Assembly: GCA_018340805.1 (NCBI GenBank)
Contig: JACMZG010001913.1
Span: 9,727,531-9,791,530, forward strand
Direction of reading: 5' to 3'
Source: Microvelia longipes
Lineage: Eukaryota; Arthropoda; Insecta; Hemiptera; Veliidae
Length of the DNA: 64,000 nt
A model generated the notes under the pieces. It saw nothing but the letters and a program-made list of their open reading frames with translations, had not been told where the DNA came from and ran no database searches. The stretch's first letter is position 1, and each line of letters opens with the position of its first letter. The translations under genes and the position numbers were made by a program. Of the stretch, positions 1,030 through 61,931 are shown piece after piece.

Positions 1030-1365
1030 AATATAGGTCTTATTATCAGCATTAGTTCAATTTTTATTGAATGACTTGTGAACCTTATTAAAAAAATTGT
1101 TAAAAACTAAAAAAAAAATTAATTAAGTTGAAATTTAGTAAGTACAAGTGTATACCTTTAACGCAATAATAAACCACACTAAGTTTTGATTAACAAGTAT
1201 AGTTATCAATACGAAAAGTATATCCATAATTTTTGTTGGATCATAAAAGTTAAGCAGTATTGAGCGTGGTTAGTGATGTATAAGTGACCGCTAAAAATGA
1301 TACGGATGCATTTACTATCTGAGGACGAGCGAAGCAAGTTGATGAGGAAAAGTTCTAAGCATAAA
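1030..1365 (+). repeat. Dispersed repeat family A, 3' half
   Basis: Matches the 3' half of a roughly 0.9-kb dispersed repeat seen at least eight times in the window. Diagnostic blocks in order are TTAGTTCAATTTTTATTGAA, then GTTGGATCATAAAAGTTAAG, TTGAGCGTGGT and GAGGACGAGCGAAGCAAG, ending in a GAGGAAAAGTTC block. No coding capacity is visible. The transposon class is unknown; it could be a non-autonomous DNA element or a Helitron-like repeat. Confidence 0.7.
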
Positions 1366-1885
1366 ACTATGTATAGAATGAGCATAACTGATAACAGCAA
1401 ACCGGTTCACTGGCGGTCTTAAGTAATGCTGCCACCCTAACAATATACAATTTTCTATTACAAAAAAGTTGGCAATACTTCCGGTTGCTAAATTATTATG
1501 TTCTATTATTGATTATTCATAAAATTCTAACATAAATATCAGTGTATTACAATACTTTAAGCATTTTAAACTGTATTTTAACATTTTTTAATTAAAACTA
1601 TATTAAAAGTCGTCAACTAAACCTAGATTCTTGCATTCCGCTACCCTTTTAACATCTAAGACCGATTTTATTAAATACTCAGCCCGTTTTTAAGTTATTA
1701 TATTTGTTTCTTCATTAATGGATATTTATGACACATATATAAAATAATGTTTTGTTGTTAGAGTGGTAATGTTTTGTTGGTACCCCTACTTAAGACCACC
1801 AGTCAACTGGCTTTCATGTTATCAGTAGAATTAAATTGTGTTTACGGTCCTATGCTCCTTCTATATTAGTATTATTCTAAGTTTA
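1355..1885 (-). mobile_element. MITE family B, copy 1
   Basis: About 530 bp with inverted ends. The outer TIR contains AGAATAATACTAATATAGAA and the inner part TACTGATAACATGAAAGCC followed by a GACTGGTGGTCTTAAGTA block. A second copy in the opposite orientation lies at 10202-10740, and the interiors align throughout. Non-coding AT-rich interior, so a non-autonomous DNA transposon. Confidence 0.75.
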
Positions 1886-2370
1886 TAACAAAAAATTGTA
1901 AAATTGCATAACACGCACGAAAAATTGTGTAAAATTTGAAATTTCGCACGAAAGTGTGACCATTAAGACCGGCAAATGTATAATTTCATCTTATCATCTA
2001 CTTTATTTCAATTTTTATTATATGAAATAATAATTATAAATAAATCGTAATATCTATTTAAATTTCATTTTACAGAAATAAAATTACAAAATATATAAAT
2101 AAAATGTAATAATTCATATTGAGAATTTGTGAACGCTTTTTTCAAATTGAACTTTGGCATGAGTTCATTATTTGTATAATAATCTATAACATTTAATTAA
2201 TGATTAATTAAATAATTAATTCATAATTTAGTATTTATGTTTCATTTCAATACGGCCAAAAGTATCTGTGGATCATCACCATTGATCCAGTGTGATCACT
2301 TGAATCACTAACGAGCGAGGACAGTCCCTGGATGAGTGACTCATGGTTTTAAAACTGATAATTTCTATAT
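1886..2370. other. AT-rich intergenic or intronic sequence
   Basis: I see no gene, repeat array or strong signal here apart from general AT richness. Confidence 0.5.
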
Positions 2371-2837
2371 AATTTGATACTACCGAGTTTTGCAAAACAT
2401 GAATAGTTGAAAAAATAAAATTGTGCGAGAGACACCTAGGAAATTTAACTAGCAAAATGAAATGCTACATCTGGGAACGTTTCCATCATTCGACATCATT
2501 GATGGCTCGACATAATGTCATGTCTCACTCTGTTTTGACGTCTAACTCATCAGGGCGCCGACAGAGCCTGAACTCACTCTGACTATCAACTAAAATTCTA
2601 AAGAATATAATGTGAAGTATTTAACAGAGAAGAGCGGTGCTCTCTTACCACCATCATGCTTGGCAAGCAAAACATGTATCATTTAATACTAATGAGTGTT
2701 AGAGAACATATATTGCGGCCTGATGAGTTAAACGTAACAAAACAGAGTGGGACATGAGACTATGTATATGATGTAACAGTTCTCAGATGTATAATTGATT
2801 TTGCTAGTTACATTTCCTAGGTGTCTCTCGCACTATT
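2371..2837. mobile_element. MITE family C, copy 1
   Basis: Begins GATACTACCGAGTTTTGCAA and ends with the block CCTAGGTGTCTCTCGCAC, which is the inverted form of GTGCGAGAGACACCTAGG near its start. The interior carries TGATGGCTCGACATAATGTC and GAGCGGTGCTCTCTTACC. A fuller composite copy is at 44283-44945 and a remnant at 7676-7745. Non-coding. It ends less than 20 bp before the putative exon at 2854. Confidence 0.75.
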
Positions 2838-2853
2838 ATATTTTCTGTTTGAG

Positions 2854-2895
2854 GAAGTGCGCAGCGAGTATATTCTGAGGACGAAATTAATTCAG
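2854..2895 (+). CDS. Putative internal exon of the Ser/Pro-rich host gene (weak)
   Basis: A 42-nt stretch between a weak acceptor (TTTTCTGTTTGAG) and a strong donor (TTCAG|GTAAG). It is open in the one frame that joins the exon at 3050: it ends in phase 1 and the next exon supplies the two missing bases. It encodes a short acidic/polar run with SEDEINS. It lies directly beside a MITE end and resembles part of repeat family A, so it may be an exonised repeat or a false exon. The downstream exons are much better supported. Confidence 0.35.
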
Positions 2896-3049
2896 GTAAG
2901 GTTCGAGTTTCCCCGTTCCCAATTTCTACTTTACATGAGGACTCTTTGTACCGATATGTAGTTTATTATACCCATCAATGTCTATGTTAGCTATGTTGCA
3001 TCAATGTCTATATTTACTATGTTGCATCAATATATTTGCTATGTTGCAG

Positions 3050-3117
3050 GGTCATTGTCAGCAACGAGTACAGCGGACTCTCTAAGCTCAAGCTTATTTT
3101 ATAATAATTCTAATGAG
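3050..3117 (+). CDS. Internal exon, Ser/Pro-rich host gene
   Basis: 68 nt between acceptor TATGTTGCAG and donor GAG|GTGAGC. The open frame completes a codon with its first two bases and ends in phase 0, matching the exon at 5158. It encodes a Ser/Thr-rich, probably disordered stretch (SLSATSTADSLSSSS, then an Asn-rich end). No known domain. The phase agreement across four successive exons, not the protein sequence itself, is the main evidence that it is real. Confidence 0.6.
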
Positions 3118-3362
3118 GTGAGCTTAATAAAATAAATTATTTCCCTATGCTAATAAACACCTCAAGTGAAATAGCTAATTATTTTTTTTTTAAATGCTAA
3201 TTACTTGACAACAACGCTTATCACATAGACATAATTTATTTAGCAAGTTACAGCATTTTTAGTTAATTACTCTTTCAATTAATTTTATTATATGATTTCT
3301 TACTTGTGGTGCAAGTGCATTTATTTTTTCTATTTTTTTATTCTCTCATTCCTCTCCTATTA

Positions 3363-18404: not shown

Positions 18405-18606
18405 CATTTTCACTCTTTCAAAATTAAATATTTATTTCTATTAATAATAATTTTGGAGGTTAAAAAGATATTATTGATTATAATTACTTTGGGACTGGCA
18501 AGTGGAAAAGCCTCTACTAGCATTCCCAGCACATAATGCTGGTAGATGACCAGGCAGATGCTATCACTAAGCTTGCGGAATCGCGTTAACCTAAGGTAGT
18601 AAACCT

Positions 18607-18881
18607 ATTAGCCTAAGAGCCGGACCTGAAAAAATGTGACCATTTTGTACTCCTTAAAACCAAATTTTTCTGAAGTTATACCTTAAATTATGAACTCTGC
18701 CAATCCAGAGTGGAGCCATTCATGTGATTGCGCATGCTCAAAATTTTATAAAACCGCACAATTTCAGTTTTCTTGAAATAATTGGTTCCCTGTAGGTTGT
18801 GTGCACAACACGAAGAGACTATTTTTTAAAGATGACAAAATGTTCTAGAAAACGAGTGTTTAATCATCAAAATCAGATGAC
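18607..18881. mobile_element. Left half of an older fold-back element split by the virus-like insertion
   Basis: Diverged inverted match to about 23985-24183. Shared blocks are CCAGAGTGGAGCC, GGTTCCCTGTAGGT and CAGTTTTCTTG. The last six bases (GATGAC, 18876-18881) are the left target duplication of the 4.9-kb element. The pre-insertion locus was therefore a fold-back of about 0.65 kb. Confidence 0.65.
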
Positions 18882-19716
18882 AGTAGGGGGAAAAAGAGCG
18901 TCCGAGAACCGCCACCACCTCCGCCACCACCGCCACCTCCTCCTCCACCCGCCACCACCACCACCACCCCTCCTCCACCGCCACCACCACCACCTCCTCC
19001 ACCACCACCCTCATCCTCCTCAACCATCTCTTTATAGTTTTATACCCCCCCCCCCTCTTTTGCTTTGCATAGAATAATAACAGTAACATTAAATATGCTT
19101 GCATAGGTAGAAGCAGGATGATTTTAGGTGTGATGTAGTAGGACTTTGCCACCCTAGATTATCAAGTGTCTCTCTTAGTAAAAAGCCTTCCCACCACGTC
19201 AAGGTGGAGACACATCGGGAAGGTGTACAGTGCCCCGTCCTCGCACTGTACTATGGCGACCATCCTCTTTAAAAAAAATATCGCCTCTATATATTTTTTT
19301 TTTTTTTTTTTTATTTTTATATTTTAATTTTTTTGTATTTTTTTATATTTTTAATTTTTTTGTATTTTTATATTTTTTCTAACGTATTTACAAATTACAC
19401 AAACACTTACATCTCTTTAGCGCCATATAGGTTTACGGGACGCTATGCCACGCCAGTGACCTTAAAAGATGGAATAATGCGGTTTACGGGTCGCTATGCC
19501 ACGCCAGGGACCGCTTTGAGGGTTTACGGGTCGCTATGCCACGCCAGGGACCCTCTATGGGTTTACGGGACGCCATGCCACGCCAGGGACCCAATTATGG
19601 CACACTTCGCCATACTAGAGTTCCATCTCGTATTTGCGGCAGCTGCTGAGACATGAGTGTAAGGCTATTTAACATATGATTAAACTCTAAGAATATACTC
19701 GAAAATAAATCCCCAC
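18882..19716 (+). repeat. Left terminal inverted repeat of the virus-like element
   Basis: From the outer end inwards: AGTAGGGGGAAAAAGAG; a (CCN)n polypyrimidine tract to about 19030; a poly-C run; a hairpin (TACAGTGC and GCACTGTA, 19226-19250); a poly-T/AT tract (about 19285-19380); then four copies of a 31-bp GC-rich motif (19430-19592). The inner 120 bp is the mirror of the 3' coding end of the 22632-23075 gene. The arms differ mainly in the lengths of the simple tracts. Confidence 0.88.
19430..19592 (+). repeat. Four copies of a 31-bp motif in the left TIR
   Basis: The motif is GTTTACGGGWCGCYATGCCA followed by CGCCAGKGACC, separated by unrelated spacers of 8-20 bp. The mirror set lies at about 23068-23242. 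The spaced repetition inside both TIRs resembles a protein-binding array; that role is inference. Confidence 0.75.
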
Positions 19717-19725
19717 AAATAAAAC

Positions 19726-20250
19726 TCACGTGGCTACACATGAAACCGGTAGTAAATTTATGGTCAAACCGAGTGCAGGTCCGTTTACGAGCCATTTATA
19801 CAAACTCCATACTCGAGCCTGAGCGCAAGCAAATTTTTTATTGTGCTTATGAAGAAGGCAGGGCCTCCAGCTATAACTCAATGAACTAATTTTGGGACAT
19901 TCTATCGCAAGTAAATCTATAATGACGCAATTATTTGGCAAGTATTTTTTCAATAAACGTACTTTACCCTTTACGACAAAGTGTGTGTACCGATTAGATA
20001 AAAGTTTAAATACTAAATACAATCGCTCGTACTCAACATCACCGTCATCCCAGTTAATTCCGTGAAAATTTAATGTAAGCCAAGAATTTGTTTTCATAGA
20101 TTTAGAATCTTGTATATAATTTGCAGGTGGTAAAAATAACCAGCTCGAAGACGATTTCGTCTCCAGGTCCAAACATGCAAGCTCTTTAACGATGACTTGC
20201 CCCTCATTATCTACAAACCCTTGAATATCTATAATAGCGGTAGAAGGCAT
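19726..20250 (-). CDS. Virus-like element leftward gene, unknown, possibly DEDD-nuclease-like
   Basis: 174 codons from the first ATG (20248-20250) to TGA at 19726-19728; upstream codons in frame lack an ATG. The N-terminus has AIIDIQGF, a hydrophobic strand with D-x-Q. Further in are LNFHGINWDDG, HFVVKGK, CVIIDLLAIECP and a C-terminal ACAQARVWSLYKWL with several Cys/His. A strand carrying D-x-(E/Q) followed later by IIDL recalls the RNase H-fold DEDD exonucleases, but the first motif has Gln for Glu, so this is a weak guess. No signal peptide or membrane segment. It is transcribed away from the capsid operon across a repeat-filled gap, and its stop lies just inside the left TIR boundary. Confidence 0.6.
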   Translation of the reverse strand: MPSTAIIDIQGFVDNEGQVIVKELACLDLETKSSSSWLFLPPANYIQDSKSMKTNSWLTLNFHGINWDDGDVEYERLYLVFKLLSNRYTHFVVKGKVRLLKKYLPNNCVIIDLLAIECPKISSLSYSWRPCLLHKHNKKFACAQARVWSLYKWLVNGPALGLTINLLPVSCVAT

Positions 20251-20317
20251 CTTGACTGCACGGAAGCCGAGATACAACTGACCATATCCCCTGACATCAT
20301 AAACTTATATATTCATC

Positions 20318-20815
20318 TTGTTGGAGCCTATATGAGCCATTTAGAGTCGCTTTGGAGCCTATATGAGCCAATTTGGAGCCATGTTGGAGCCTATATGAGC
20401 CATTTGGAGCCTATATGAGCCAATTTGGAGCCGAGTTGGAGCCTATATGAGCCAATTTGGAGCCGAGTTGGAGCCTATGAGCCATTTAGAGCCGGAGTGG
20501 AGCCAATATGAGCCATTTGGAGCCGGAGTGGAGCCATATAGAGCCGGTGTGGAGCCGTGGAGCCTATATGAGCCAATTTGGAGCCGAGTTGGAGCCATTT
20601 GGAGCCTATATGAGCCATTTAGAGCCGGAGTGGAGCCAATATGAGCCATTTAGAGCCGGAGTGGAGCCAATATGAGCCATTTAGAGCCTATATCGGAGAC
20701 ATTTGGAGCCGGAGTGGAGCCATTTAGAGCCGGTGTGGAGCCTATATGAGCCATTTAGAGCCGATGTGGTGCCAATATGAACTATCGCAGAGCCTATACG
20801 AGCCGATTTGGAGTT
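20318..20815. repeat. GAGCC repeat block in the divergent intergenic region
   Basis: Dozens of GGAGCC/TGAGCC words spaced mostly 10-20 bp apart, in units such as GGAGCCTATATGAGCCATTT and TAGAGCCGGAGTGGAGCC. The block fills the gap between the leftward gene (ATG at 20250) and the rightward capsid genes (ATG at 20944). It is open in several frames on both strands only because the units are near multiples of three. Its position suggests a shared regulatory region or replication origin of the element, which is inference. Confidence 0.8.
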
Positions 20816-20885
20816 GTGTTGCAGCTAATATGGGTCTAACTGGAGTTGTTGAAGCCGCTTCAGCGGTGTTTTAGCTTTCGTTTAG

Positions 20886-20943
20886 TATATATATAGAGCT
20901 AGTGGAGCTCCAACTTTAGTATTGAGCCAGACACCAAACAGAG
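20886..20943 (+). promoter_or_regulatory. Likely promoter and leader of the rightward capsid genes
   Basis: TATATATATAG at about 20887-20897 is about 50 bp upstream of the ATG at 20944 and immediately after the GAGCC block. A TTTAGTATTGAG block lies between them. The spacing fits a TATA-driven start with a short leader. Confidence 0.4.
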
Positions 20944-21276
20944 ATGTTCTCCAAGATACGTGATTCGAGCCTCTACAAGAAGAGATTTGAAAACTTGACA
21001 TTTAGTTGTCCAGACTGCTGTAAAAAGTTTATACATAAAAAGAATTTACTTCGACACCAACGAGATAAACACTGTGAGGGGGTTGAACGCGAGGATGGTT
21101 CAGAGTTGGGATTCTACAAGGACGCCATTGCAGGTAAACATGATGAGTCAATTGAAGACTATAATAACTCTAGCGAGGCAGTATGTGGATCGGAAAAGGA
21201 TAGAAAAAAAGAAGAGAAGACGATGAAGAGGAGGATGAAGAAGATGATGAGGAGGATGAACCTATTGATGATGTAG
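20944..21276 (+). CDS. Virus-like element C2H2 zinc-finger ORF, probably frameshifted into the capsid frame
   Basis: ATG at 20944. Residues about 22-44 form one classical C2H2 finger, C-x2-C-x12-H-x4-H (CPDC...LLRHQRDKH). After an acidic/polar linker the zero frame ends in an implausible Met/Lys/Arg run and stops at 21274-21276. In the -1 frame the same bases encode an Asp/Glu-rich stretch that runs straight into the capsid ORF. The -1 frame is closed by TAG at 21201-21203, directly before a run of seven A (21204-21210), so the switch must occur between 21204 and 21275. It is either a programmed -1 shift or a one-base indel in the A run. The finger may bind element DNA during packaging or regulation, which is inference. 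Confidence 0.72.
   Translation: MFSKIRDSSLYKKRFENLTFSCPDCCKKFIHKKNLLRHQRDKHCEGVEREDGSELGFYKDAIAGKHDESIEDYNNSSEAVCGSEKDRKKEEKTMKRRMKKMMRRMNLLMM
21204..21210 (+). promoter_or_regulatory. Candidate -1 ribosomal frameshift heptamer A AAA AAA
   Basis: In the zinc-finger frame the codons read AGA AAA AAA GAA, so the seven A form X XXY YYZ in the correct phase for a -1 slip. The new frame continues open through the acidic segment into the 415-codon ORF. Downstream sequence is a purine tract with no obvious strong stem-loop, which weakens the case. A sequencing or real indel in the homopolymer is the simple alternative. Confidence 0.45.
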
Positions 21277-21305
21277 TAAGTAACAAAGACATAGAAGAGC
21301 CAAAA

Positions 21306-22553
21306 ATGATTGAGATGTTAAATTTAAGTGAACACCACGAATATGATGAATCTATAGAGAGTCTAGAGTATCATACTCACTATCCGTACGCAAATTCAAA
21401 GCTAGACGCCGGAGAAGAGATACGGATACCGGTACAACTCCAAGACATTTATACGCTTCCGAGTGAAAGTTTTATATATTTGGAACTATCATTTTTAAAA
21501 GAAGGAGGAAATACGGCACCGGCGAAGCACAGACTCATCAACAACGCATTCCCGTTTTTATTCGACGAGATCCGGTATGAAATTTGTGGAGTTGAGATTG
21601 ATAAAGTCAGAAACCCCGGAATGACTTCAACTCTAAAAGGGATTGCATCTCACGCGCCTATATCGTATTCCTTAACAAATATGGGATGGACAATACCCTT
21701 CAATGAAGTACAAGAAGAATCATCCACCCGGTACAACGTTTGTCTACCTTTATCCTCGTTACTCGGATTCGCGGAAGATTACCGAAAAGTGTTGATAAAC
21801 GTAAAGCAAGAGCTAATTTTGGTAAGAGCGAGAAACGATTCAAATTGTTACGCGCAGCACGTCCCATACGTCGATACGGATGCACGGGCAGAAGTTCGCG
21901 AGAAAGTTAAAATTGAACTACTATCGCTTTGTTGGAAAATACCTTACGTTTCGGTTAACGAAGTTCAGAAACTAAATTTAATTAATTATTTAAAAACAGA
22001 AAAAATAATTTCTCTCCATTTCCGAGCGTGGGATATGCACGAGTATCCGCTATTACCTACGTCAAACCGACAAGTATGGTCGATTAAAACTTCGACTCAA
22101 CTCGAGAAACCGCGATTTTTAATTTTAGCCTTTCAAAAGGGTAGAAATAACGTCGTCGATAAGGCATCCAGTTGTTTCGATCACTGCGATTTGACAAATG
22201 TCAAGCTTTATCTCAATTCACGAGTGTTTCCCTACGATGATTTAAATTTAAAATTCTCCCAAAATAAAATTGCTTTATTGTACCACATGTACGCGGCGTT
22301 TCAAACGTCGTACTACAACACTTATCAGAGTCTACCGTACGTATCCTTTACAGATTTTAAGAATAAATGTCCTGTTGTAATCATTGATTGTTCGAAACAA
22401 TCAGAGTCTATCAAAAAGGGTCCGGTAGATGTCAGATTAGAATTTGAATCTGAAAAAGATTTCCCGGCAAATACTACCGCGTACTGTCTATTGTTACACG
22501 ATAGATTTGTTCAGTACAACCCTCTGACTAGCATTGTGCATAAAATGACATGA
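21306..22553 (+). CDS. Polinton-type major capsid protein-like (F54H12.2-like)
   Basis: 415 codons from ATG 21306 (context AAAAATG) to TGA at 22551-22553, uninterrupted. I recognise the architecture of the arthropod and nematode proteins annotated as F54H12.2-like, which are the double-jelly-roll major capsid proteins of Polintons/Mavericks. The length agrees (about 400-460). Recognisable blocks are FIYLELSF (residues about 57-64), the second-half start KPRFLILAFQ, FDHCDLTNVKLYLN, ALLYHMYAAFQTSYY, VVIIDCSKQSES and the C-terminal FPANTTAYCLLLHDR. It would assemble a virus-like capsid shell. The open -1 frame upstream suggests it may be made as a fusion to the zinc finger or start independently at this ATG. 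No inactivating mutation is seen. Confidence 0.75.
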   Translation: MIEMLNLSEHHEYDESIESLEYHTHYPYANSKLDAGEEIRIPVQLQDIYTLPSESFIYLELSFLKEGGNTAPAKHRLINNAFPFLFDEIRYEICGVEIDKVRNPGMTSTLKGIASHAPISYSLTNMGWTIPFNEVQEESSTRYNVCLPLSSLLGFAEDYRKVLINVKQELILVRARNDSNCYAQHVPYVDTDARAEVREKVKIELLSLCWKIPYVSVNEVQKLNLINYLKTEKIISLHFRAWDMHEYPLLPTSNRQVWSIKTSTQLEKPRFLILAFQKGRNNVVDKASSCFDHCDLTNVKLYLNSRVFPYDDLNLKFSQNKIALLYHMYAAFQTSYYNTYQSLPYVSFTDFKNKCPVVIIDCSKQSESIKKGPVDVRLEFESEKDFPANTTAYCLLLHDRFVQYNPLTSIVHKMT

Positions 22554-22631
22554 ATAGACATGTCTGGTCGAGGGGTGGAGGGTATGTATAAATAAAGAAA
22601 GCCAAGCAATAATAAATCAGTATTGCGCAAG
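22554..22631 (+). promoter_or_regulatory. Short spacer with TATA-like and AATAAA motifs between two element genes
   Basis: Contains TATGTATAAATAAAG at about 22583-22597, which could serve as a TATA box for the next gene or a polyadenylation signal (AATAAA) for the capsid gene, and then AATAATAAATCAG just before the ATG at 22632. Its compactness is virus-like. Confidence 0.35.
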
Positions 22632-23075
22632 ATGTCGACCATTTACCATCTAAGTGACGGTAAAAAGGTATTAGTTTGTTTAGTTAAAGGTATAGCTTTT
22701 TTGAGATTAGAACATGGTAAAAGAAGTGTAAACATTCACATGTCCGATTTTGAGATGTTGAGATCCGCGAAAAATGAAATTGATAATTATTTTGTAAAAC
22801 GTAGTAAAGAAGATGTACAACTTGATCAAAAATTTGGTTTAATAAAAGTAAGATTGGTTAATCCTAAATTTCACGGACGTCAAGTAATTATTCGTCCAAT
22901 TTGTTCGTATGAAGAAGATAAAATATTTGTTGGTGTTGTTTTAAAAAAACCAGAGTGGGATTTATTTTCGAGTTTATTCTTAGAGTTTAATCATATGTTA
23001 AATAGCCTTACACTCATGTCTCAGCAGCTGCCGCAAATACGAGATGGAACTCTAGTATGGCGAAGCGTGCCATAA
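22632..23075 (+). CDS. Virus-like element small protein, possibly PC4-like ssDNA-binding; tail lies in the TIR
   Basis: 147 codons from ATG 22632 to TAA 23073-23075; the open frame extends 9 bases upstream without an ATG. Residues 1-55 have a strand-rich pattern, YHLSDGKKVLVCLVKG and then IHMSDFEMLRSAKNEI. This order (short Gly-containing hairpin, V-x-V strand, Lys-Gly turn, strand, then a helix) resembles the PC4/Sub1 single-strand DNA-binding fold, though I cannot confirm it. Residues from about 108 on (FSSLFLEFNHML, LPQIRDGTLVWRSVP) are encoded inside the right TIR. The mirror copy of that tail therefore also sits at 19595-19716 on the minus strand in the left TIR, without the PC4-like part. 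Confidence 0.6.
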   Translation: MSTIYHLSDGKKVLVCLVKGIAFLRLEHGKRSVNIHMSDFEMLRSAKNEIDNYFVKRSKEDVQLDQKFGLIKVRLVNPKFHGRQVIIRPICSYEEDKIFVGVVLKKPEWDLFSSLFLEFNHMLNSLTLMSQQLPQIRDGTLVWRSVP

Positions 23076-23784
23076 TTGGGTCCCTGGCGTGGCATAGCGT
23101 CCCGTAAACCCATAGAGGGTCCCTGGCGTGGCATAGCGACCCGTAAACCCTCAAAGCGGTCCCTGGCGTGGCATAGCAACCCGTAAACCGCATTATTCCA
23201 TCTTTTAAGGTCACTGGCGTGGCATAGCGTCCCGTAAACCTATATGGCGCTAAAGAGATGTAAGTGTTTGTGTAATTTGTAAATACGTTAGAAAAAATAT
23301 AAAAATACAAAAAAAATTAAAAATATAAAAAAATACAAAAAATAAAATAAAAAAATAAAAAAAAAAAAAAAAATATATAGAGGCGATATTTTTTTTAAAG
23401 AGGATGGTCGCCATAGTACAGTGCGAGGACGGGGCACTGTACACCTTCCCGATGTGTCTCCACCTTGACGTGGTGGGAAGGCTTTTTACTAAGAGAGACA
23501 CTTGATAATCTAGGGTGGCAAAGTCCTACTACATCACACCTAAAATCATCCTGCTTCTACCTATGCAAGCATATTTAATGTTACTGTTATTATTCTATGC
23601 AAAGCAAAAGAGGGGGGGGTATAAAACTATAAAGAGATGGTTGAGGAGGATGAGGTGGTGGTGGTGGAGGAGGTGGTGGTGGTGGCGGTGGAGGAGGTGG
23701 TGGTGGTGGTGGTGGCGGTGGAGGAGGAGGTGGCGGTGGTGGCGGAGGTGGTGGCGGTTCTCGGACGCTCTTTTTCCCCCTACT
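22955..23784 (-). repeat. Right terminal inverted repeat of the virus-like element
   Basis: Mirror of 18882-19716: inner coding tail, four 31-bp motifs (about 23068-23242), an A-rich tract, the TACAGTGC/GCACTGTA hairpin (about 23416-23440), a (GGN)n tract (about 23645-23757) and the outer end CTCTTTTTCCCCCTACT. Apart from simple-tract lengths only scattered substitutions separate the arms, for example GCAACCCG in one motif copy where the left arm has GCGACCCG. Confidence 0.88.
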
Positions 23785-24183
23785 GATGACTACAACCAAA
23801 GTTATGGCTCTTTCAAAAACACCAAAAATGGTTAATTTATGTAAAGTAAGCGAATTTCTTTAACAAAATATTGGCTTTTTGTTCATTTTTTGGCCATTTA
23901 ACAAATGTCAAAACTTTAGTTGAAGCTATCGCGATTTTTACTTGCTTTAAAAAATGTTTTCTGTGTGTTTTGCACTTGACCTACAGGGAACCACTTATTG
24001 CAAGAAAACTGGAATTTGTGGGATTTTCTAATATTTTGAGCAAGCACATTTATATGAAGGGCTCCACTCTGGATAGTCAGACTATGTTTTTCCTTTATAA
24101 TTTAGGTATATTTTCAGAATAATTTGGTTTGAAGTAGTACAAAATGAGTCTCATTTTTAGGGCTGGCTCTTGAACTAATAGCT
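23785..24183. mobile_element. Right half of the older fold-back element
   Basis: Starts with the right copy of the GATGAC duplication (23785-23790). From about 23985 it is the diverged inverse of 18607-18800. The segment 23791-23980 has no left-arm partner and would have been the loop. Confidence 0.6.
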
Positions 24184-25706: not shown

Positions 25707-25880
25707 GAAAGAGCTAACCGAGCAATAAAGTGCTACAGCTATGCTAATACAAAGTTAATTACCAATATAGACTTTTGGGCAGAAGCAATAGGTACAGCAG
25801 CATACCTCAAAAATAAAACTCTTAAAAAACACGGAAACAAAACCCCTGATGAACTATCATAAACCGTCAGTTAATCATTT

Positions 25881-26910
25881 AAAATAATTTGGATGAAAAG
25901 AATATTATTGGATTCTTCAAGACAAGCGTAAAGAGTTTCAGCCAAAGATGAACAAAGGTATAATTGTAGGATGTTCTATTGATTGAAGACCATATAGAAT
26001 ATTTGATCCAAGAACAAGACGTGTAATTGAATCAAGAGACGTTCAATTTATATTACTATAAATATTACTATTTGAAACAAGATGTAACTTAAGCTGAAAT
26101 ATTTACAAAATTATTTTAACACAATAATGATAAGAATGGACCAAATAAACAAAATACAGTAACTGGTACAGCAATGAATGGGAAGTATTTTCGATTCTTT
26201 TGGGCCTGTAAGTTGAATAAAAATAGTCCCAAGTCGGACTATTGATTTGCTGAATCTAATAAGCCGGTCCGGAATCAATAACTCTACTCAAAGCTAGGGT
26301 TGCTAGGATCGTAGCTTGGTACCGGCGATCATTTTTATCGCATTTTTACCGTATTTATATTATAGCTATTTATGTTATGTTATATATATATATATATTAT
26401 GTTATAGCAATATGTTATTTATGCTATAACATAAATACGGTAAAAATGCGATAAAAATGATCGCCGGTACCAAGCTACGATCCTAGCAACCCTAGCTTTG
26501 AGTAGAGTTATTGATTCCGGACCGGCTTATTAGATTCAGCAAATCAATAGTCCGACTTGGGACTATTTTTATTCAACTTACAGGCCCAAAAGAATCGAAA
26601 ATACTTCCCATTCATTGCTGTACCAGTTACTATATTTTGTTTATTTGGTCCATTCTTATCATTATTGTGTTAAAATAATTTTGTAAATATTTCAGCATAA
26701 GTTACATCTTGTTTCAAATAGTAATATTTATAGTAATATAAATTGAACGTCTCTTGATTCAATTACACGTCTTGTTCTTGGATCAAATATGCTATATGGT
26801 ATTCGATCAATAGAACATCCTACAATTATACCTTTGTTCATCTTTGGCTGAAACTCTTTACGCTTGTCTATAAGAATCCAATAATATTCTTTTCATCCAA
26901 ATTATTTTAT
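25881..26910. repeat. 1-kb palindrome with about 500-bp arms, containing the end of the copia relic
   Basis: The arm 25881-26385 is followed by its near-exact inverse ending at 26910. Mirror landmarks are GGTACCGGCGATCATTTTTA against TAAAAATGATCGCCGGTACC, and GGATGAAAAGAATATTATTG against its inverse at the right end. The centre is an AT-rich loop near 26360-26440. The arms contain copia coding sequence followed by non-coding sequence, so this is an inverted duplication rather than a normal MITE. Confidence 0.9.
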
Positions 26911-54656: not shown

Positions 54657-55626
54657 TGTGCTTTCAAGGCAAATTTTATCGATATATTTGCAACTTACAT
54701 ATTGCTTATATAAAATGCAAATATTAAGTATTTTGCTAGTTGAATCAAAAAATTACTTAATCAATGATGAAAAACTACGAGATAACCTAAACCCAATTTT
54801 TGTTAATTGCACACTAGTAGAACAATTTGGTAACATCGATTAATAATTAGAGAGAATGCTAAGTTTAATATGATTATATAAAAGGAAATATGTGATGCTC
54901 TTTACGCTGCCTTTCCATACTTTCTGAGTCTTTTTTTTTAATCCGTATTCTACTAGAGACATACTTTTTATGGGTTAATTTTAAAAGCCCCGTTTTCTAA
55001 CATTATTTAATGCTCGAGTATTTCGTCGACAACTGTTGAGTTATCTCTAAACTCATAGTTTACATTCTGAAATACCTTAACTCATGTAATGACTAAATCG
55101 TAAAGGAGTTTTTTAGTTCACTATACTAGAGATTAAACCTCTACACATAATTATACATTTTAAAATATTCTAAGGATATAATTTAACAATTGTAAACAAA
55201 GCTAGAATCTATGTACAGTTTAAACAACCTATCTTTCTAAATTATTTTATACGTGAATTATAACACGACCACGCAAGTAAAATAGGTAACGTGGTAAGGT
55301 GCGTAAATAAGATTTTCAGGTATTTATAACGCATTGCCATCATCATGAAATCCAGGTGTACAAATAAAAAAATAAAATCACGACGAAATATATAGTACAA
55401 ATCCTTGGTGTATTGTTTTGGACTTACAATATAGTCAAAAGATATTTATTAAACAGCATAAGAATGATCACAAACTAACTGCTATTTATCGCTGCATAAG
55501 CAAAACAAGCTAACTAATTTGTACTCATAATAAATATATTACTCTCTCCCAGTTCCTACAATCGGTTTGATCCCCCAATATTTTATAAATGCGTAAAAAT
55601 AATTATTATAATTTGGTTAATTGCAG

Positions 55627-56924
55627 CACCTAGTGGTAAAGGAAGTCCTGGATGGGGATTTAATTGGAACTGGAACAAAAGACCTGACGGAAGCGTAGAT
55701 CCTTCTGCACAACCACCAGTAGGACCAGACGGCAAACCAGTGTCAGGATGGGGATGGCCAGGTTTAGGATTTAACTGGAATTGGAACCGAAGACCAGACG
55801 GAAGTATTGATCCTTCTGCCGTGCCACCAGTTGGACCTGACGGCAAACCAGTATCAGGATGGCCAGGTTTAGGATTTAACTGGAATTGGAACCGACGACC
55901 TGACGGAAGTATTGATCCTTCTGCCGAGCCACCAGTCGGACCTGACGGCAAACCAGTATCAGGATGGCCAGGTTTAGGATTTAACTGGAATTGGAACAGA
56001 AGACCTGACGGAAGTATTGATCCTTCTGCCGAGCCACCAGTCGGACCTGACGGCAAACCAGTATCAGGATGGGGATGGCCAGGTTTAGGATTTAACTGGA
56101 ATTGGAACAAGACCTGACGGAAGTATTGATCCTTCTGCCGAGCCACCAGTCGGACCTGACGGCAAACCAGTATCAGGATGGGGATGGCCAGGTTTAGGAT
56201 TTAACTGGAATTGGAACAGAAGACCTGACGGAAGTATTGATCCTTCTGCCGAGCCACCAGTCGGACCTGACGGCAAACCAGTATCAGGATGGGGATGGCC
56301 AGGTTTAGGATTTAACTGGAATTGGAACAGAAGACCTGACGGAAGTATTGATCCTTCTGCCGAGCCACCAGTCGGACCTGACGGCAAACCAGTATCAGGA
56401 TGGGGATGGCCAGGTTTAGGATTTAACTGGAATTGGAACAGAAGACCTGACGAAGTATTGACGAATTTATCAGCCTGGAATCTGACGGAAGTATTGATCC
56501 TTCTGCCGAGCCACCAGTCGGACCTGACGGCAAACCAGTATCAGGATGGCCAGGTTTAGGATTTAACTGGAATTGGAACAGAAGACCTGACGGAAGTATT
56601 GATCCTTCTGCCGAGCCACCAGTCGGACCTGACGGCAAACCAGTATCAGGATGGGATGGCCAGGTTTAGGATTTAACTGGAATTGGAACAGAAGACCTGA
56701 CGGAAGTATTGATCCTTCTGCCGAGCCACCAGTCGGACCTGACGGCAAACCAGTTCCAGGCTGGGGATTTAACTGGAATTGGGGAAAACCTGGAACCAAG
56801 CCTGATAGCTCTGGTGATAAATCAACTGGTAAAGGTGGAGGAGGCTGGGGATGGAACTGGGGAAGACCCAGTAGCAGTGGTGATTCTTCCGCATTATCAA
56901 CTAATGTAGATCCTAGTGGACAGG
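55627..56924 (+). CDS. Exon 6a of the large modular gene: Trp-rich 35/37-residue repeats (frame broken)
   Basis: Acceptor GGTTAATTGCAG, donor GACAGG|GTGAGT, phase 1 at both ends. It begins APSGKGSPGWGFNWNWNKRP and carries about ten repeats of GWGWPGLGFNWNWNRRPDGS followed by IDPSAEPPVGPDGKPVS. It ends in a Gly/Trp segment (KGGGGWGWNWGRPSSSGDSS). The frame is open to about 56115, where AACAAGACC replaces AACAGAAGACC (two bases lost). More 1-base losses occur near 56450 and 56651, so total length is out of phase by one. Repeats are Trp/Asn/Pro/Gly-rich, hydrophilic and likely extracellular. Antisense frames also stay open, only because the repeat length is a multiple of three. Confidence 0.72.
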
Positions 56925-58386
56925 GTGAGTTTAATATTTTTTTTACTCGCTTATTATATATTCTCGGTACTTTGACAACATGTGATACCTATCGCTTTAA
57001 AAATGACCACGTTGTGGAAAAAGAAAATGAGTTAAATACAACATTTATTTTTCCTCTTTTATAATCTAGGTATAAATGAAATGTATTGTTTGTAAAAAAA
57101 TGCGAAACCAGGATGATCCTGGAATTAGGATCCTGGATACAATGTCTCTAATTAAAATGTACCCGGATAAAATGTCTTTAAATAAAATACACCCGCATTA
57201 AATATACCATTTCTACAAATTTTCTCCATAGAAGTATTTATATGGGTGTTTACGGCGTAACAAGATATGCGGGAAGGTCCTGTAGTAAATATTTGTTGAG
57301 TTTACAGAACATATTTTTATTTAGCTTACATGCTTCAAACAAATTTTAACTTTTGATTTAATCTGTTACGAGAAACTAACTAAAGTTGATTTTATTTGTG
57401 CTTTCCAAGCAAATGATCAATTTTTATTAATTTTGCGTTAACTAATACATATTGCTTATAAAATGCAAATAAAATTAAGAGTATTTTGTGTAGTTGAATC
57501 AAAAAATTACTTAATCAATGATGAAAAACTACGAGATAACCTAAACCCAATTTTTGTTAATTGCACACTAGTAGAACAATTTAACATCGATTAATAATTA
57601 GAGAGAATGCTAAGTTTAATATGATTATATAAAAGGAAATATGTGATGCTCTTTACGCTGCCTTTCCATACTTTCTGAGTCTGTTTTTTTTTAATCCGTA
57701 TTCTACTAGAGACATACTTTTTATGGGTTAATTTTAAAAGCCCCGTTTTCTAACATTATTTAATGCTCGAGTATTTCGTCGACAACTGTTGAGTTATCTC
57801 TAAACTCATAGTTTACATTCTGAAATACCTTAACTCATGTAATGACTAAATCGTAAAGGAGTTTTTTAGTTCACTATACTAGAGATTAAACCTCTACACA
57901 TAATTATACATTTTAAAATATTCTAAGGATATAATTTAACAATTGTAAACAAAGCTAGAATCTATGTACAGTTTAAACAACCTATCTTTCTAAATTATTT
58001 TATACGTGAATTATAACACGACCACGCAAGTAAAATAGGTAACGTGGTAAGGTGCGTAAATAAGATTTTCAGGTATTTATAACGCATTGCCATCATCATG
58101 AAATCCAGGACTCAGGTGTACAAATAAAAAAATAAAATCACGACGAAATATATAGTACAAATCCTTGGTGTATTGTTTTGGACTTACAATATAGTCAAAA
58201 GATATTTATTAAACAGCATAAGAATGATCACAAACTAACTGCTATTTATCGCTGCATAAGCAAAACAAGCTAACTAATTTGTACTCATAATAAATATATT
58301 ACTCTCTCCCAGTTCCTACAATCGGTTTGATCCCCCAATATTTTATAAATGCGTAAAAATAATGATTATAATTTGGTTAATTGCAG

Positions 58387-59423
58387 CACCTAGTGGTAAA
58401 GGAAGTCCTGGATGGGGATTTAATTGGAACTGGAACAAAAGACCTGACGGAAGCGTAGATCCTTCTGCACAAGGGACCAGACGGCAAACCAGTGTCAGGA
58501 TGGGGATGGCCAGGTTTAGGATTTAACTGGAATTGGAACCGAAGACCAGACGGAAGTATTGATCCTTCTGCCGTGCCACCAGTTGGACCTGACGGCAAAC
58601 CAGTATCAGGATGGCCAGGTTTAGGATTTAACTGGAATTGGAACCGACGACCTGACGGAAGTATTGATCCTTCTGCCGAGCCACCAGTCGGACCTGACGG
58701 CAAACCAGTATCAGGATGGGGATGGCCAGGTTTAGGATTTAACTGGAATTGGAACAGAAGACCTGACGGAAGTATTGATCCTTCTGCCGAGCCACCAGTC
58801 GGACCTGACGGCAAACCAGTATCAGGATGGGGATGGCCAGGTTTAGGATTTAACTGGAATTGGAACAGAAGACCTGACGGAAGTATTGATCCTTCTGCCG
58901 AGCCACCAGTCGGACCTGACGGCAAACCAGTATCAGGATGGGGATGGCCAGGTTTAGGATTTAACTGGAATTGGAACAGAAGACCTGACGGAAGTATTGA
59001 TCCTTCTGCCGAGCCACCAGTCGGACCTGACGGCAAACCAGTATCAGGATGGGGATGGCCAGGTTTAGGATTTAACTGGAATTGGAACAGAAGACCTGAC
59101 GGAAGTATTGATCCTTCTGCCGAGCCACCAGTCGGACCTGACGGCAAACCAGTATCAGGATGGCCAGGTTTAGGATTTAACTGGAATTGGAACAGAAGAC
59201 CTGACGGAAGTAGCACCAGTCGGATTTAACCCGGAAAACTGACGGAGAAACCAGTCGGACCTGACGGCAAAATTTAACTGGAATTGGGGAAAAACCAAGC
59301 CTGATAGCTCTGGTGATAAATCAACTGGTAAAGGTGGAGGAGGCTGGGGATGGAACTGGGGAAGACCCAGTAGCAGTGGTGATTCTTCCGCATTATCAAC
59401 TAATGTAGATCCTAGTGGACAGG
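58387..59423 (+). CDS. Exon 6b of the large modular gene: Trp-rich repeats (frame broken)
   Basis: Same acceptor and donor as 6a. An 8-base deletion near 58470 (GCACAAGGGACC instead of GCACAACCACCAGTAGGACC) shifts the frame. From 58492 it is open for 245 codons of regular repeats GWGWPGLGFNWNWNRRPDGS...EPPVGPDGKPVS. The end is scrambled around 59210-59290 (partial repeats out of order) and then resumes the GGGWGWNWGRPSSSGD segment. About eight to nine repeats. It is either a decaying duplicate or a badly resolved consensus; splice sites are intact. Confidence 0.65.
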
Positions 59424-60883
59424 GTGAGTTTAATATTTTTTTTACTCGCTTATTATATATTCTCGGTACTTTGACAACATGTGATACCTATCGCTTTAAA
59501 AATGACCACGTTGTGGAAAAAGAAAATGAGTTAAATACAACATTTATGTTTCCTCTTTTATAATCTAGGTATAAATGAAATGTATTGTTTGTAAAAAAAT
59601 GCGAAACCAGGATGATCCTGGAATTAGGATCCTGGATACAATGTCTCTAATTAAAATGTACCCGGATAAAATGTCTTTAAATAAAATACACCCGCATTAA
59701 ATATACCATTTCTACAAATTTTCTCCATAGAAGTATTTATATGGGTGTTTACGGTAACAAGATATGCGGGAAGGTCCTGTAGTAAATATTTGTTGAGTTT
59801 ACAGAACATATTTTTATTTAGCTACATGCTTCAAACAAATTTTAACTTTTGATTTAATCTGTTACGAGAAACTAACTAAAGTTGATTTTATTTGTGCTTT
59901 CCAAGCAAATGATCAATTTTTATTAATTTTGCGTTAACTAATACATATTGCTTATAAAATGCAAATAAAATTAAGAGTATTTTGTGTAGTTGAATCAAAA
60001 AATTACTTAATCAATAATAAAAAACTACGAGATAACCTAAACCCAATTTTGTTAATTGCACACTAGTAGAACAATTTGGTAACATCGATTAATAATTAGA
60101 GAGAATGCTAAGTTTAATATGATTATATAAAAGGAAATATGTGATGCTCTTTACGCTGCCTTTCCATACTTTCTGAGTCTGTTTTTTTTAATCCGTATTC
60201 TACTAGAGACATACTTTTTATGGGTTAATTTTAAAAGCCCCGTTTTCTAACATTATTTAATGCTCGAGTATTTCGTCGACAACTGTTGAGTTATCTCTAA
60301 ACTCATAGTTTACATTCTGAAATACCTTAACTCATGTAATGACTAAATCGTAAAGGAGTTTTTTAGTTCACTATACTAGAGATTAAACCTCTACACATAA
60401 TTATACATTTTAAAATATTCTAAGGATATAATTTAACAATTGTAAACAAAGCTAGAATCTATGTACAGTTTAAACAACCTATCTTTCTAAATTATTTTAT
60501 ACGTGAATTATAACACGACCACGCAAGTAAAATAGGTAACGTGGTAAGGTGCGTAAATAAGATTTTCAGGTATTTATAACGCATTGCCATCATCATGAAA
60601 TCCAGGACTCAGGTGTACAAATAAAAAAATAAAATCACGACGAAATATATAGTACAAATCCTTGGTGTATTGTTTTGGACTTACAATATAGTCAAATAGA
60701 TATTATTAAACAGCATAAGAATGATCACAAACTAACTGCTATTTATCGCTGCATAAGCAAAACAAGCTAACTAATTTGTACTCATAATAAATATATTACT
60801 CTCTCCCAGTTCCTACAATCGGTTTGATCCCCCAATATTTTATAAATGCGTAAAAATAATGATTATAATTTGGTTAATTGCAG

Positions 60884-61931
60884 CACCTAGTGGTAAAGGA
60901 AGTCCTGGATGGGGATTTAATTGGAACTGGAACAAAAGACCTGACGGAAGCGTAGATCCTTCTGCACAACCACCAGTAGGACCAGACGGCAAACCAGTGT
61001 CAGGATGGGGATGGCCAGGTTTAGGATTTAACTGGAATTGGAACCGAAGACCACGGAAGTATTGATCCTTCTGCCGTGCCACCAGTTGGACCTGACGGCA
61101 AACCAGTATCAGGATGGCCAGGTTTAGGATTTAACTGGAATTGGAACCGACGACCTGACGGAAGTATTGATCCTTCTGCCGAGCCACCAGTCGGACCTGA
61201 CGGCAAACCAGTATCAGGATGGGAAGGCCAGGTTTAGGATTTAACTGGAATTGGAACAGAAGACCTGACGGAAGTATTGATCCTTCTGCCGAGCCACCAG
61301 TCGGACCTGACGGCAACCAGTATCAGGATGGCCAGGTTTAGGATTAACTGGAACTTTATCCTTCTGCCGAGCCACCAGTCGGACGACGGCAAACCAGTAT
61401 CAGGATGGGGATGGCCAGGTTTAGGATTTAACTGGAATTGGAACCGAAGACCTGACGGAAGTATTGATCCTTCTGCCGAGCCACCAGTCGGACCTGACGG
61501 CAAACCAGTATCAGGATGGGGATGGCCAGGTTTAGGATTTAACTGGAATTGGAACAGAAGACCTGACGGAAGTATTGATCCTTCTGCCGAGCCACCAGTC
61601 GGACCTGACGGCAAACCAGTATCAGGATGGGTGGCCAGGTTTAGGATTTAACTGGAATTGGAACAGAAGACCTGACGGAAGTATTGATCCTTCTGCCGAG
61701 CCACCAGTCGGACCTGACGGCAAACCAGTATCAGGATGGGGATGGCCCGGTTTAGGATTTAATTGGAATGGTAATAGAAGACCGGACGGAAGTATTGATC
61801 CTTCTGCACTAGGACCTATTGGATCCGGTGGACAATCAAAAGGGGGTGCAGGGTGGAAATGGGTTTGTGGCTGGTTAAAACCTGACGGATCTTTTGCAGC
61901 CCAAACGTCTGATGTAGGCAAGTTAAGATGA
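60884..61931 (+). CDS. Exon 6c of the large modular gene: Trp-rich repeats, possible terminal exon
   Basis: Same acceptor region as 6a and 6b. At least six 1-2 base indels interrupt the repeats (near 61052, 61222, 61315, 61344, 61384, 61630), and one repeat is mostly lost at about 61350. Unlike 6a and 6b it ends in a unique segment, ALGPIGSGGQSKGGAGWKWV, then CGWLKPDGSFAAQTSD and TGA at 61929-61931. No phase-1 donor is visible before that stop, so this copy may be an alternative 3' end of the gene, with exons 7 and 8 reached by skipping it. Confidence 0.6.

Follow-up and report, generated by a model that had tools for sequence, protein, structure and literature searches.

A short, capsid-bearing Polinton relative in Microvelia longipes, probably one copy of a multicopy satellite

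We examined a 64,000-nucleotide stretch (here called the window) of contig JACMZG010001913.1 from the 665-Mb assembly of Microvelia longipes, which holds a 4903-bp element at positions 18882 to 23784, bracketed by GATGAC duplications. The element has Polinton-type ends with 6-bp duplications, has its capsid gene and right end in common with a full-type Polinton of the same genome, and is missing the polymerase, integrase, ATPase and protease genes. We put at roughly 0.7 the probability that it belongs to a multicopy family of non-autonomous, capsid-bearing satellites related to that coexisting full type, and the substitution patterns among its relatives suggest that selection still protects the capsid gene of the short copies. 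The parts of the element are the following, with open reading frames (ORFs) and terminal inverted repeats (TIRs) in window coordinates.

18876 to 18881, no strand: left target-site duplication GATGAC, read from the sequence
18882 to 19713, plus strand: left TIR, 832 bp, first letters AGTAGGGGG, 98.0% identical to the right TIR over 836 columns
19729 to 20250, minus strand: L174, an ORF of 174 codons pointing to the left TIR and under constraint in the short copies
20324 to 20804, plus strand: array of 43 GAGCC motifs, with a spacing of 10 or 11 bp in 37 of the 42 gaps
20944 to 21276, plus strand: C2H2 zinc-finger and linker part of a finger-capsid gene (ORF; zf-C2H2 E=0.0026, below the Pfam cut-off)
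21306 to 22553, plus strand: double jelly-roll capsid ORF, 415 codons (PF21738, E=1.9e-112)
22632 to 23075, plus strand: R150, a small ORF ending inside the right TIR, common to the full type, with no detectable constraint in short copies
22957 to 23784, minus strand: right TIR, 828 bp, from alignment to the left TIR
23785 to 23790, no strand: right target-site duplication GATGAC, read from the sequence

Both TIRs start with AGT and open with the common letters AGTAGGGGGAAAAAGAGCG. Long TIRs with AG or AGT starts, combined with a 6-bp duplication, are the features by which Polintons (Mavericks) are recognized, and the window element carries both. In the complex inner part of the TIR, the left and right copies differ at 4 of 334 sites in the window and by 0 to 3.1% in 16 other loci. 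The PF21738 (DJR-like_dom) match in the Pfam profile search covers residues 77 to 402 of the open 415-residue frame; the double jelly-roll assignment is profile-based, as single-sequence structure models made without relatives were unusable (mean predicted local distance difference test scores of 32.7 for the capsid and 30.1). A preliminary description of this element, made from the sequence alone, had reported the GATGAC duplication, the near-identical AGT-starting TIRs and the intact capsid ORF, and these observations hold as a whole, as does its statement that polymerase, integrase and ATPase are absent: in tblastn of full-type proteins against the element, no match was obtained to PolB, integrase, ATPase or protease. 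The PHROGs search of the window proteins returned nothing better than E=0.05, the PDB sequence search with the capsid and L174 returned no relative, and no relative outside the M. longipes genome was found among viral contigs, GTDB genome contigs and phage records. A literature search for the name F54H12.2, which the preliminary description had linked to such capsids, gave no match in a collection with most subscription papers outside its scope.

Searching the genome with a 301-bp stretch of the TIR yielded 354 candidates, of which 40 were scored (all at least 97% identical) and 20 places were fetched. Fifteen of these are of the window type (short type), four are of the full type (L043, L044, L045, and L048) and one is a fold-back (L036). 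Both ends could be located by the end motif in 12 of the 20 fetched loci, and 11 of these 12 are flanked by perfect 6-bp duplications, all different (the duplication of L032 is counted at its outer right end only, and L049 fails at its called ends); together with the window copy, they rule out that GATGAC is a chance duplication. Short copies with both ends measure 4.3 to 6.0 kb. A capsid search of the genome yielded at least 112 matches, which merge into at least 95 places; with the start of the capsid alignment as a proxy for type, 39 are short, 10 are full, 6 start at residues 4 to 6 (5 of them from other lineages at 43-44% identity) and 40 are untypable. An open frame of at least 500 codons is present in 17 of the 39 short-type places, and many copies have broken frames. 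L059 and L060 carry other capsid lineages, 43-44% identical to that of the window, in open frames of about 420 codons (PF21738 E=4.1e-103 for L059). Two terminal arrangements were also seen: L032 has two right ends (6268 and 6448), the outer of which is followed by AACATA, as in the left duplication, and the inner by its reverse complement, TATGTT; the left end of L046 (1285-1888) bears an extra inverted R150 with the last 31 capsid codons, which looks like an extension of the TIR.

In the four full-type loci, the TIR, R150 and capsid gene are common with the short type, and other genes then follow. The genes that precede the capsid are a protease-like ORF (identified by a motif only, with no Pfam hit), an integrase (rve and chromo), a 323-residue protein, an A32-type ATPase and PolB. 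Pfam matches, each scored in one locus, are PolB PF03175 and A32 ATPase PF04665 in L044 and the integrase rve in L045. The homology between the two types ends at or near the capsid start. When eight full-type proteins were compared by tblastn with the window element and with each of the 15 short loci, the capsid and R150 alone matched, and the PolB pieces, integrase and ATPase gave no match in any of them. Full-type capsids are 96-97% identical to that of the window (97% for L056), and the TIRs are about 89-95% identical in their main aligned parts and about 81% in the outer pieces of L044 and L045 (right end only). The satellite idea of the preliminary description is supported, since full-type loci with matching TIRs and a nearly identical capsid coexist with the short copies in the same genome. 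Fold-back structures were also observed. L036 (716-8927, at C562:8556000-8565700) is an 8.2-kb element with the 6-bp duplication ACTGAT, in which the capsid/protease/integrase side of the full type occurs as two copies inverted relative to each other, and L043 (1-3945) has two PolB regions of opposite orientation, each of which matches L044 at about 1154-3161. Fold-backs such as L036 suit protein-primed replication.

The genes kept by the short type are the capsid gene and two small genes, L174 on the minus strand and R150 on the plus strand, as had been described; the zinc finger, which had been listed as another gene, appears not to be a separate one, because several other copies hold finger, linker and capsid in one open frame of 517 to 542 codons. 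The preliminary interpretation is supported for the Polinton ends, the capsid, the missing genes and the satellite, and finds no support for finger and capsid as separate genes; for its suggestion that the element may make a shell of its own, the support comes from substitution patterns. L032 and L051 have a single 542-codon frame of finger, acidic linker and capsid; the 517-codon frame of L052 starts just upstream of the finger, the 538-codon frame of L053 has a different reading across it, and L054 and L055 have shorter frames that include the linker. The full-type L056 and L057 have 417 codons with neither finger nor linker. The window copy has its finger in another frame than its capsid, and the finger scores 18.6 bits against a Pfam cut-off of 25.2. 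Its four ligands show no substitution in 20 copies, which is weak evidence because variation is confined to 19 of 84 positions. Errors of the assembly probably account for some of the broken frames, since L031 differs from the window over 2051 bp by two substitutions and nine one-base indels. Programmed frameshifting from finger to capsid was considered for the window copy and dropped, because other copies have an open frame through both parts and no RNA structure stands out (z 0.18).

L174 is present in 14 of the 15 short loci, the exception being L047. Neither L174 nor R150 matches a family at the Pfam or PHROGs cut-off, the searches through which a minor capsid (penton) protein was looked for. 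L174, the array and the finger have no match in the read (right) part of the full-type loci. GAGCC motifs number 36 to 96 in all 15 short loci, with a best period of 10.3 to 10.6 bp save in L042 (9.8, weak), and no such cluster occurs in the full-type pieces or L036. Tandem arrays are inherently periodic; what is notable in this one is that its unit equals one helical turn and that it occurs in every short copy read.

Selection was assessed from nonsynonymous to synonymous (N:S) tallies, which are variant counts with no fitted codon model and with the kinship of copies partly allowed for. Twenty-one short capsids were counted; L047, whose capsid falls among the full types, was excluded, and L058 was taken as short by its tree position. 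Capsid variants shared by at least two copies are 25:64, against a chance ratio of 2.43 (p=1e-16), and singletons are 45:43. Likewise, L174 in 15 copies shows 1:11 plus one stop for shared variants (p=1e-5) and 19:14 plus one stop for singletons. The finger (shared 8:1, singletons 16:6), the linker (3:1, 11:2) and R150 (5:3, 10:3 plus one stop) show no departure from neutrality in the same copies and therefore serve as an internal control for the constraint on capsid and L174. A separate capsid count with L047 included gave 21:47 and 26:40, and scoring in the wrong frames placed the changes at or above the neutral ratio. In a tree of 30 capsid sequences, for which the observed mutation spectrum predicts a ratio of 2.29, short branches carry 26:63 internally and 70:116 terminally (L047 included), with zero stops in these 186 terminal changes; full-type branches carry 3:27 internally and 5:24 plus one stop terminally, mixed branches 4:16 and L036 3:1. 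The full types form a shallow clade nested in the short ones, which are more diverse; L047 is the one short copy that falls inside this clade.

Several observations weigh against a satellite with a capsid of its own. The full-type loci were read from the right end only and so contribute no duplications; the copies read carry damage (no long PolB frame in L048, the fold-back in L043, a capsid stop in L044), so that a working helper is something we infer. Constraint is weaker in short than in full capsids (Fisher p=0.048 internal, 0.036 terminal), the first 60 capsid residues are weakly constrained (shared 7:8, singletons 9:5), and finger, linker and R150 appear unconstrained. Short singletons absent from the eight full-type and fold-back sequences stand at 41:34. 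The shallow full-type clade comprises six capsids only, and full types outside the sample could therefore have donated alleles; L047 indicates that exchange or separate origin does occur. A rival explanation is a passive product of deletion or recombination that is moved by the full type with an idle capsid, its constraint acquired in full-type ancestors through repeated origin or gene conversion. The position of L047, the many broken frames, the drift of R150 and finger in the same copies, and the 5:26 ratio of shared short alleles that also occur in full types (and a further 3:2 at sites whose majority state in short copies is absent from full types) favor such an origin. However, shared alleles outside all eight full-type and fold-back sequences still stand at 15:36, the full-type clade in the tree is shallow, assembly errors probably explain part of the broken frames, and L174, which has no match in the read parts of the full type, is constrained too; we consider a passive product unlikely.

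Two other explanations appear far less probable still. The capsid might poison assembly of the full type, as a defense kept for the host or in competition; it has an N-terminal extension in intact frames, is constrained without protease or ATPase, and belongs to a type that exceeds the full one by 39 places to 10. Interference, however, would not itself select L174 or keep the array in every short copy, and an element that has multiplied to tens of copies is more suggestive of selfish spread, making this explanation highly improbable. It is just as hard to credit that the element is independent, with L174 as its replication or insertion enzyme and host polymerases doing the rest: L174 is under constraint and none of the libraries searched contains a relative, but a Polinton with integrase and polymerase genes has the TIRs, capsid and R150 in common with the element, whose 6-bp duplication is also typical of Polintons. 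By the variant counts, the short element has what marks a satellite virus, an own capsid gene apparently kept by selection, with the caveat of the unsampled full types.

As a satellite, the short element would depend on the full type, whose protein-primed polymerase would copy it from the common TIR ends and whose integrase would insert it. The substitution patterns support that capsid gene and L174 were retained by purifying selection as short copies multiplied, and the capsid would then probably serve the very element in which it is encoded. Particles may form in which the capsid, with the N-terminal finger and acidic extension of intact frames, builds shells alone or with the full-type capsid, and the protease and ATPase of the full type would finish and fill them. 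The GAGCC array may act in cis, either as a promoter that serves L174 on one side and the capsid gene on the other or as an address label for packaging; because it lies between two divergent genes, the promoter is as good a reading as the packaging signal. That the satellite travels in its own or mixed particles, with the finger-capsid fusion recognizing the helically phased array as an address and the shells filled with satellite DNA, is a tentative and rather doubtful proposal, further weakened by the lack of constraint on finger and linker.

The window element resembles satellite viruses, virophages and phage satellites in its capsid gene, small size and presumed dependence on a larger relative, and differs in being integrated, in having close kin as the presumed helper and in having no known particle. 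Virophages and Polinton-like viruses have a packaging ATPase beside the capsid, which the window element lacks. It is Polinton/Maverick-like in its AGT ends, 6-bp duplications and double jelly-roll capsid, with a full type of the same genome bearing PolB, ATPase and integrase, and unlike them in the absence of protein-primed PolB, retroviral-type integrase, packaging ATPase and adenain-like protease. The adenovirus capsid is also a double jelly roll. Adenovirus packaging domains, as described in the accessible text of PMC5033970, likewise use redundant short repeats at whole helical turns; they have few repeats, 21 bp or two turns apart at one end, whereas the motif here is a different one, GAGCC, with 36 to 96 copies one turn apart between genes. 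In the part of PMC8097293 available, Mavericks are given AGT ends and 6-bp duplications, and purifying selection is taken as evidence for particles, which were unobserved as of that paper. Nine elements without a capsid gene, which also lack protease and ATPase, appear in the accessible portion of PMC4028283 and represent the reverse case, since the capsid is what remains here. Non-autonomous DNA transposons, as far as the available text of PMC6431247 describes them, similarly need enzymes in trans and have TIRs in common with an autonomous-type element; here, a constrained structural gene, a constrained L174 and an array absent from the read full-type parts are found in addition. The same text reports that phage islands interfere with capsids. 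No capsid-bearing Polinton satellite without a polymerase is mentioned in the accessible parts of PMC6431247 and PMC11071308, and none was found described in a literature search of titles and abstract openings, with few subscription papers covered.

The surroundings of the element were also inspected. Its flanks (18602-18831 and 23945-24181) are a mutual inverted repeat at 79% identity, which places the element inside another repeat; no uninterrupted copy of this repeat, as an empty site, was found within the fetched DNA. Elsewhere in the window, a 487-bp inverted repeat (25880-26366 and 26423-26909) is 98% complementary across a 56-bp spacing, and repeat-coding stretches occupy 55583-61651 (unit example GWGWPGLGFNWNWNRRPDGSIDPSAEPPVGPDGKPVS).

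If the array does serve as a packaging address, the element would be an integrated counterpart, in an animal or other eukaryote, of the phage satellites that redirect capsids. Its ends, array, capsid and L174 make up a minimal natural system for asking about the requirements of a Polinton capsid. A short element in which no other Polinton gene is recognized, yet whose capsid gene appears constrained, offers separate evidence for a capsid selected in cis, and a capsid worth selecting in cis is an argument for Polinton particles.

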